63,739 nucleotides of DNA from Elusimicrobiaceae bacterium (GTDB lineage Bacteria > Elusimicrobiota > Elusimicrobia > Elusimicrobiales > Elusimicrobiaceae), in NCBI GenBank assembly GCA_017520185.1, contig JAFXGO010000007.1:1-63739 (forward strand), given 5' to 3'. How positions within the stretch are numbered: the stretch's first letter is position 1; each line of letters begins with the position of its first letter. The translations under genes were made by a program, and so were the position numbers. The notes beneath the pieces were generated by a model. The model saw nothing but the letters and a program-made list of their open reading frames with translations, had not been told where the DNA came from and ran no database searches. Below are positions 29,193 to 30,957 of the stretch, one piece after another.

Positions 29193-29744
29193 TTATTTCT
29201 TTTTAATCGGTTTGATTAAACCGTAGGTGCCGTCCAAACGTTTGAAAATCAAGTTGATTTGTTTGGAGTCTTCATCTAAAAACATCCAGAAAGAATAGCC
29301 CAAGCGTTCCATTTCGTAAGCGGCATCTTCCGGATTCATGGGAGTCACTTCTACTTGTTTGATGACGGAAAATTTTACGTCGGTCGTCGGCAAAAGAATA
29401 TTGTCGCTAAAAGTGGCAATTTCTTCCACTACGGCTGCTTTTTTGGCAGTACGTTTGGTTTTGGTTTTTTCTTTTGCTTTTTTCATTTGCGCTTCTGCTT
29501 TGGTAGCGGCAGCGTCAATGGCTTTGTAAAGATCGGTTTCCACAGCGGTGGCAGAGATGTTGTTTTTGCTGCCGGTGTGAATTACAATTTCGGCACGTTG
29601 GTTGATTTTCTTTTCTACAGAGAGCAACACTTGTGCCCAGACGATATGATCAAAATTTTTCTCCATTTTGCTGACGCGGGTCTGCACGAATTGTTTAATG
29701 GCAGGCGTCAGTTTAATATTTTTAGCGGTAACTTTAATTTCCAT
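29193..29744 (-). CDS. hpf: Ribosome hibernation promoting factor, long form
   Basis: 183 residues: an N-terminal HPF/YfiA domain (VTAKNIKLTPAIKQFVQTRVSKMEKNFDHI), a Lys/Ala-rich linker, and the C-terminal dimerisation domain (PEDAAYEMERLGYSFWMFLDEDSKQINLIFKRLDGTYGLI). Long HPF joins 70S ribosomes into inactive 100S dimers in stationary phase. First gene of the operon, with GGAGG upstream and a hairpin at the mRNA 5' end. Confidence 0.95.
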   Translation of the reverse strand: MEIKVTAKNIKLTPAIKQFVQTRVSKMEKNFDHIVWAQVLLSVEKKINQRAEIVIHTGSKNNISATAVETDLYKAIDAAATKAEAQMKKAKEKTKTKRTAKKAAVVEEIATFSDNILLPTTDVKFSVIKQVEVTPMNPEDAAYEMERLGYSFWMFLDEDSKQINLIFKRLDGTYGLIKPIKKK

Positions 29745-29816: not shown

Positions 29817-30036
29817 CGACGTTTTCAGGTGAAAAAAAGGATTAGTTTTTTGATACATTCCTTGAAGTGCGCTTGAATAGGCCGTTGGCAGGGCTAGTCC
29901 TCCTCGTAAAAGAATTTTTCAGTCGGTATTTAATTATAAGGGGAAAAGCGGCAAAAAACAAGAGAGAAACAGGAAAATTTGATGGAACTTTTTCTTTTTG
30001 TCTGTTGAAACAGGAAGATTGTGAAAACAAACCATA
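29817..30036. other. Intergenic stretch without a supported gene
   Basis: About 220 nt between the hpf promoter and the candidate RNA gene. A 62-codon minus-strand frame exists (29842-30030) but has no ribosome site and no recognisable sequence. CTTGAAGTGCG and GCTTGAAT form a short imperfect direct repeat near 29862. I see nothing else. Confidence 0.5.
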
Positions 30037-30166
30037 AAAAAAGAACTAGGTAGATGGACGCACCTCCCCATCATCGTACCACATATAAGAGCTCTTTATA
30101 TGCCCCGGCAGTCCTGTGCGCAGGCTACAAATATATAGCCTTTTTTCTGCAGTTTACCCAGTTCCT
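30037..30166 (-). ncRNA. Candidate structured small RNA, about 130 nt
   Basis: On the minus strand the predicted RNA begins AGGAACTGGGTA and ends TACCTAGTTCTT plus a T7 run (30042-30036). These ends pair over 12 bp (allowing G-U), forming a closing stem. Inside are GGCTA/TAGCC (8-nt loop), CATATAA/TTATATG around a GAGCTC palindrome loop, and GATGG/CCATC with a loop containing GGAGGTG. A promoter (30173-30201) puts the start exactly at the first base of the closing stem. No protein frame spans it. It does not contain recognisable SRP, tmRNA or RNase P core motifs; a 6S-like RNA is possible but unproven. Confidence 0.55.
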
Positions 30167-30172
30167 ATAAAT

Positions 30173-30201
30173 AGTATAAGTAATAAAAGATTTGCCGTCG
30201 A
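30173..30201 (-). promoter_or_regulatory. Promoter of the candidate small RNA
   Basis: Minus strand TCGACG (30201-30196), 17-nt spacer, TATACT (30178-30173). Start predicted at 30166. It lies just past the stop of the phosphoesterase gene. Confidence 0.55.
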
Positions 30202-30213
30202 TAAGATAAAATT

Positions 30214-30957
30214 TTACATTCCCAACCCCAGACTGTCTATCAAAAAAGTAGGCAGACCGGCTGCGCGCATTTTTTCTTGAGTTTTGGTGTAGTCGTAAGC
30301 CTCGCGCAGGAAACGGAAGGTGTTTGTTTTTGTATCCCAAATGCCAAAGGAAGCGCGGGAATCGTTATCGCGCGGTTTCCCAACAGAACCGGGATTTACT
30401 ACATAGCGTAAAATGGGGTGAAAATTAACGGAGGCTTCTTTGTGCACCACCGACACATGACAAATGTTCTCGTCTCCTTCCATGTAAAAAGGCAAATGCG
30501 TATGCCCTACAAAAAGCACCTGACCTTCCCATAAAGAATAAGCAGTGCGATATTGGCTGCAGTTAGCGAAATATTCTTTAATTGGGTCCATCGGGGTACC
30601 ATGAACAATAGTGAAATTTTTGCCGCGATGGATTTCCGGCAAGAAAGATACGCAACGGATAGAGCGGGAGGTTAATTGGTTTTCAGTCCAATCCAATACT
30701 TGCAGTGCTTCAAAATTAAAATACATGCGAAGTTCAGGGTGGGTGAAAACGGCATCATGATTACCTAAGACGCCTACCGCTAAACCTTCCTCTTTTAACT
30801 TGTGATATTTTTGGATGCACTTTTCGGGGTCGGGACCATAGCCGATTAAATCTCCGCAGAAAATATATTTTTCCGCACCTTCGGCTTTTAGGCGTTTTAG
30901 AGCCGCATTAAAGGCTTCTAAATTGCCATGAATATCAGAAAGAACCCCGTATTTCAT
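30214..30957 (-). CDS. Calcineurin-like metallophosphoesterase
   Basis: A 247-residue two-metal phosphoesterase. SDIHGNLEAF (DxH), FCGDLIGYGPDP (GDxxGYG), LGNHDAVF (GNHD), VHGTPMDP and FVGHTHLPF (GHTH), with NPGSVGKPRD near the end, cover all metal ligands. The GYGPDP and NPGSVGxPR motifs match the YfcE/ApaH-like group of small phosphodiesterases. Substrate undetermined. Its ATG overlaps the smc stop by one base. Confidence 0.88.
   Translation of the reverse strand: MKYGVLSDIHGNLEAFNAALKRLKAEGAEKYIFCGDLIGYGPDPEKCIQKYHKLKEEGLAVGVLGNHDAVFTHPELRMYFNFEALQVLDWTENQLTSRSIRCVSFLPEIHRGKNFTIVHGTPMDPIKEYFANCSQYRTAYSLWEGQVLFVGHTHLPFYMEGDENICHVSVVHKEASVNFHPILRYVVNPGSVGKPRDNDSRASFGIWDTKTNTFRFLREAYDYTKTQEKMRAAGLPTFLIDSLGLGM

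Follow-up and report, generated by a model that had tools for sequence, protein, structure and literature searches.

The DNA analysed here (the window) is a stretch of 63,739 nucleotides from an Elusimicrobiaceae bacterium, corresponding to contig C7 of the 1.4 Mb genome G000, in a genus that comprises 66 species. On its minus strand it carries a gene for a structured RNA which is probably the orphaned chromosomal copy of an antidote RNA that phages carry against a toxin-like protein domain. That the RNA neutralises its domain would be the simplest account of five observations taken together: one RNA accompanies each domain, RNA and domain alleles match, the fold is conserved, the promoter is independent of the late genes, and copies lacking the toxin gene recur.

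Structure and phage copies of the RNA

We compared the fold of both strands with that of shuffled sequences. The minus strand reached -42.3 kcal/mol against -33.6 ± 3.6 kcal/mol for the shuffles (z -2.44; 3 of 200 shuffles as good), and the plus strand was ordinary (z -0.61). The elements of the gene are the following:

30036-30165, minus strand: RNA gene, about 125 nt plus a U7 tail (fold z -2.44; covariance model R1, 152.7 bits; homologues in G000:C2 and G073:C6).
30173-30201, minus strand: promoter, with -35 box TCGACG (30201-30196), a 17-nt spacer and -10 box TATACT (30178-30173).
30155-30165, minus strand: 5' arm of the closing stem P1, its pairs kept in G073 through double changes at several positions.
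30043-30052, minus strand: 3' arm of P1, followed by T7 (30042-30036), from the comparison with G073.
30123-30140, minus strand: hairpin P2 (GGCUAU...GUAGCC), absent or reduced in G073.
30081-30103, minus strand: hairpin P3 with invariant loop AAGAGCUC and two compensatory pairs between G000 and G073.
30053-30072, minus strand: hairpin P4 (GAUGG-GGAGGUGCGU-CCAUC), its stem invariant in the comparison with G073.
30116-30120, minus strand: pseudoknot strand CGCAC, pairing with GUGCG (30063-30059) in the P4 loop; two of the five pairs are changed on both sides in G073.
30059-30063, minus strand: pseudoknot strand GUGCG, within the P4 loop, from the comparison with G073.
30025-30178, minus strand: segment common to the phage copy G000:C2:19616-19770 (96% identity).

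The closing stem begins 8-9 nt past the -10 box and runs into the T7 tail. An earlier, sequence-only reading had proposed a structured RNA gene with its own promoter, in agreement with the fold, the TCGACG-17-TATACT promoter and the homologues with compensatory changes found here. It had also described the molecule largely as we find it, with a closing stem that runs into T7, inner hairpins, and loops showing GGAGGTG and GAGCTC; its 12-bp stem has 11 pairs, and the strand is the minus one. Its statement that no protein is encoded stands, there being no open reading frame (ORF) of at least 80 aa inside the RNA gene, as does its exclusion of SRP RNA, tmRNA and RNase P: no Rfam family matched the RNA at gathering score, and the best sub-threshold matches (E ≤ 10) are attributable to chance. 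The Rfam model of the raiA motif RNA, an element known near hpf/raiA, gave no match to the window at gathering score or at E ≤ 10.

A second copy of the RNA lies in the same genome on contig C2 and is identical to that of the window at 149 of 155 positions (96%). This 29,838-bp contig encodes an integrase, a portal and major head and tail proteins, identifying it as that of a temperate phage. C2 and the chromosomal contig C9 have in common an attachment-like identical stretch of 141 bp where a ribonucleotide-reductase-like reading frame ends. The phage is therefore one of this host and integrates elsewhere than at the RNA; an attachment site within the RNA is thereby ruled out. The segment common to both RNA copies starts at the -10 box and ends just past the terminator, and these limits, which are not an inverted repeat, also rule out a MITE-like mobile element. 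Two of the differences between the copies fall in stems, where both keep the pair as G-U, and the -35 box is weaker in the window than in the phage. The chromosomal copy is a recent acquisition.

Searching all 66 genomes of the genus we recovered one further true homologue, a diverged copy in a phage of another species (G073:C6). In an alignment of the three copies, whose columns were checked by hand, G073 retains all 11 pairs of P1 in spite of differences at most positions; P3 is retained too, with two double changes flanking the invariant AAGAGCUC loop; P4 is invariant; and the pseudoknot CGCAC:GUGCG (30120-30116 with 30063-30059) becomes CUCGC:GCGAG, with two of the five pairs double-changed. 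P1, P3 and the pseudoknot are thus preserved through compensatory changes, and because of this comparative evidence, homologues and compensatory changes alike, the RNA is more than a chance fold. A covariance model built from the three copies found those same three places among 149 genomes of the order, at 153, 153 and 109 bits, and elsewhere in these genomes gave only chance matches of 22 bits in coding sequence (G060 and G123). Short BLAST matches in G003, G005, G031, G057 and G066 were discarded as promoter-like or coding. IMG/VR and INPHARED, searched by exact pattern and by protein, returned neither the long RNA nor its partner protein, the IMG/VR motif match L105 being a coincidence within coding sequence.

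A convergent protein partner with matched alleles

The two phage copies of the RNA are encoded convergently with one and the same virion-region protein gene, on its opposite strand and at its stop codon: the RNA overlaps the gene by approximately 12 nt in C2 and lies 8 nt beyond the stop in G073. The partner protein combines a conserved N-terminus (approximately residues 1-109), which in C2 is not MuF by Pfam, with a variable C-terminus that forms two classes among seven proteins. The type 1 C-terminus and the long RNA co-occur in exactly the same two of the 149 genomes.

The copies of the protein in G007, G005, G028, G073 and G070 have type 2 C-termini, with weak LPD3 matches below the cut-off, and their genes have, at the same convergent place, other RNAs, all short, that likewise come with this type of promoter, a closing stem and a T run (hereafter cassettes). 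These RNAs follow the C-terminal allele: an identical GGGAUACC... RNA accompanies the ending '...EHINKINK' in G007 and G073, a GGAACAC... RNA the ending '...GIDISKL' in G028 and G070, and a GGCGCCC... RNA the ending '...GIKIPK' in G005 and G070. Behind a broken N-terminus, G070 shows a row of displaced modules of C-terminus plus RNA, a layout familiar from polymorphic toxins. The gaps after the partner genes hold the RNA cassette and no notable ORF that could represent a small immunity protein.

The hairpin loops of four type 2 RNAs (L050, L051, L053 and L054) read CUACAAC, CUGAACA, CUUGAUC and CUUGAAU; all four start with C-U as tRNA anticodon loops do, which would fit decoys of an anticodon nuclease (n = 4).

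Cassettes at the ends of toxin-type domains

A promoter pattern taken from these cassettes (TGAC-N16-19-TAYACTATNNNTAGG) occurred ten times in the 66 genomes, against none for the reversed pattern used as control. Eight occurrences were known cassettes, one (in G079) was rejected as the promoter of an ordinary gene, and the remaining one pointed to a giant ORF in G088 containing three MuF_C domains, each with an antisense cassette at its end. We also used a scanner that looks for a promoter together with a closing stem and a T run and that gives 0-2 matches per region in shuffled sequence. Across five phage regions with 117 ORFs, 11 ORFs had a convergent cassette at most 40 nt from the stop. 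Ten of these cassettes follow C-termini of toxin type (type 1, type 2/LPD3-like, LPD3 or LPD13), and the other is weak.

For an independent test, MuF_C domains (PF18819) were located by protein profile search and not by the RNA. Nine domains were found, in six genomes that represent three genera and two families, two of the nine being near-duplicates between G005 and G088; in all nine the cassette 3' end lay 0-6 nt from the domain end. Cassettes were also present at MuF_C in three IMG/VR contigs, which had been picked out by a protein motif alone, and in the E. coli phage PhiR5_2, whose MuF_C domain was confirmed; two of the three IMG/VR cassettes were read by eye, their -10 boxes being weaker than the scanner permits. 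In total, all 13 MuF_C domains found have a cassette no more than about 10 nt from their end. Several of the RNAs have the common core GGGCAAUUGGAGCCC, and 10 of 20 consensus pairs are changed on both sides, in a small set with close relatives mixed in. Rfam gave no family at these places.

Further cassettes were observed on the minus strand of the G073 phage (L045/L046, G073:C6), at 39386-39286 (101 nt) and 40211-40152 (60 nt), at the stop codons of two ORFs, one MuF-LPD13 and one LPD3; a SAM riboswitch (RF00162) lies beside this phage region (L045, 4182-4268). The C2 phage has a second one (24198-24113, minus strand; GCCCTTGACTGCC...AAGGGCC T6), antisense near the end of a 914-aa polyvalent-type ORF. 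In the window, another scanner match at 59053-58948 (minus strand; TTGACT-16-TATACT) overlaps a possible gene start and is probably due to chance.

Toxin-less copies in E. coli

Of 5,426 E. coli genomes, 117 contain the PhiR5_2-type RNA body. Some copies lie in a polyvalent 'LPD38' ORF and, among the matches listed, most lie in no annotated gene. The toxin-less copies inspected belong to P4-like elements with primase, SSB, ProQ/FinO-like and PerC-like genes, one adjoining a restriction-modification pair (cytosine methylase and restriction endonuclease), and they retain their own promoter (TTGCTC-16-TATAAT), the closing stem and a U run. In one copy the core hairpin GGGC/GCCC has become UGGC/GCCA, a compensatory change. 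These copies parallel that of the window. In the P4-like elements L121, L122 and L123 the toxin-less RNAs are downstream of the PerC-like and ProQ/FinO-like genes.

The chromosomal locus

The sequence-only reading had placed the gene between smc and hpf. On one side this is correct, hpf lying at 29193-29744; on the other, smc is followed by a calcineurin-like phosphoesterase gene (30214-30957), and it is this gene that lies directly upstream of the RNA. The RNA and the three genes are co-directional. At the same locus G067 has another cassette-type RNA that begins with an identical TATACTATTTATAGG, so that the -10 and +1 region has the same letters in the window copy, the phage copy and the G067 cassette; G032 and G024 have none there. 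Short cassette-like RNAs with the core GGUUCCUACUU(G/U)GUGUAGGGUAAGUCC were seen in host intergenic DNA at G067:C5:30849-30946, the one at the window locus, and at G024:C99:66925-66987.

An antidote RNA and its alternatives

In the phages of this host each variable toxin-like C-terminus of virion-region proteins is followed by an opposite-strand structured RNA gene that overlaps or abuts its 3' end and that has its own terminator and its own constitutive-type promoter, independent of the late genes. We propose that a lysogen would make the RNA all the time, and that injected DNA would make it at once. The RNA, closed and pseudoknotted, may bind the toxin domain to which it belongs, and would probably act as a decoy that occludes an RNase-type active site in the manner of type III antitoxins, and the producing or lysogenic cell would survive. 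The cell of the window has obtained the RNA but not the toxin, with recombination in the -10/+1 region as the probable route, and the orphan could protect it against toxin domains carried in by this type of phage.

Passages of PMC5512222 describe MuF_C/PBECR as predicted RNases of the BECR fold, packaged and injected, and those of PMC5576092, also cited for MuF_C/PBECR domains, count the MuF toxins of temperate phages among the polymorphic toxins and say that they need immunity. We consider it somewhat better than an even chance that the principle is general, i.e., that phages delivering polymorphic nuclease-type toxin domains encode one antisense neutralising RNA per domain end, even inside multi-domain ORFs, and that bacteria and satellites keep stray copies as protection. 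If true, this would be an immunity principle without earlier description, in which the antidote is an RNA on the back strand of each toxin domain; polymorphic toxins are otherwise countered by proteins, and an RNA would be a different way to make and spread immunity. It would explain large multi-domain phage proteins with many toxin domains and no neighbouring immunity genes, and would give a role to widespread unannotated RNAs, including those in more than 100 sequenced E. coli genomes. No description of RNA partners of MuF_C, PBECR or LPD domains was found in the open literature, a scope that leaves out most subscription journals and all preprints, so that an earlier description is possible.

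Several points weigh against an antidote. The type 1 C-terminus matches nothing in Pfam, NCBIfam, PADLOC, PHROGs or PDB, and AlphaFold, run on the single sequence, gave a poor model (pLDDT 53), for which reasons its nature as an RNase is just suggested, the features pointing to it being an invariant His and a C-terminal Thr-Ser. The covariation of the long RNA comes from three sequences, two of them near-identical; the window copy, being recent, could lack function; and passages of PMC5576092 propose small protein immunity ORFs for MuF toxins.

The main rival, which we regard as unlikely, is antisense control of the type I kind, where the RNA would lower toxin expression by pairing with late mRNA of the phage at the toxin gene's 3' end, its fold being secondary, and the orphan would act in trans on the mRNA of incoming phage. 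In agreement with this, the RNA gene is always convergent with the toxin 3' end and often overlaps it, making the RNA a perfect complement of the read-through mRNA in the phages, and the window copy is still 96% complementary. However, the fold is kept by compensatory changes, pseudoknot included, and the E. coli toxin-less copy altered in both sides of its core hairpin has lost complementarity while keeping the fold. Moreover, the RNA covers the stop codon or what follows it, or else linkers between domains, rather than start sites, and antisense pairing has no way to stop a toxin that arrives as protein.

Less probable again is a window copy without any role in the host, a piece of phage DNA caught by recombination that may or may not be transcribed and is carried as a neutral passenger, whatever the RNA does in the phage. 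Its presence at this locus in one of the 66 species and its weaker -35 box would suit such a fragment, but the transferred piece spans the -10 box to past the terminator and its two stem differences preserve pairing. The different cassette-like RNA at the same locus in G067 and the recurrence of toxin-less copies in E. coli also speak against a passenger.

A cofactor or packaged part of the virion protein (chaperone, scaffold or guide) is very improbable: the one-to-one match of RNA and domain alleles and the self-complementary loop GAGCUC, with its possible dimerisation, are compatible with it, but toxin-less copies in chromosomes and satellites would make little sense, and the constitutive-type promoter is opposed to the late genes. 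Finally, a 6S-like or other host regulatory RNA, suggested by the sequence-only reading and with the closing stem, own promoter and intergenic position in its favour, is the least probable of all, as the 6S covariance model has no match in the window, the RNA has an internal pseudoknot instead of the 6S bubble, it is absent from relatives (present in just 2 of the 149 genomes), and its phage copies are tied to a toxin gene; the accompanying term 'lineage-specific regulatory RNA' was only loosely right for an RNA that is associated with phages, forms a pair with a toxin-like domain and was recently acquired by the chromosome.

Comparison with known systems

Among the known systems closest to the antidote proposed here are the type III toxin-antitoxin systems (ToxIN, CptIN, TenpIN), which also combine a structured, pseudoknotted non-coding RNA with a predicted endoribonuclease, and whose direct neutralisation is what we propose. 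Type III systems have a tandem-repeat RNA array upstream of the toxin, in one operon with one promoter and a terminator between them (PMC5086642). The RNA described here has a covarying 5-bp pseudoknot (in three sequences only), but it is single-copy in the window, C2 and G073, and it lies downstream and convergent, with its own promoter. The toxin differs as well, being a domain of a phage virion-region protein in which no ToxN, CptN or TenpN match was detected.

With MuF toxins and polyvalent proteins, as passages of PMC5576092 and PMC5512222 present them, the partners appear to share their place among phage head-region proteins, swappable C-terminal toxin domains (MuF_C, PBECR, LPD) and proposed injection with the DNA. 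Immunity there is a proposed downstream protein ORF, whereas here it would be a convergent structured RNA, which the passages of neither paper mention. The orphan immunity genes of CDI and Rhs systems are likewise found as displaced toxin-module/antidote pairs and as antidotes without toxin; here the antidote would be an RNA instead of a protein and the toxin phage-borne. Type I antisense RNAs (SR6/yonT, RalA/RalR) are similarly convergent with or antisense to a prophage toxin gene that they overlap, and the RNA described here is by position complementary to the toxin mRNA, yet its fold covaries and is kept by compensation, it covers only the 3' end of a large virion-type protein gene or of an inner domain, and it has toxin-less copies of diverged sequence.
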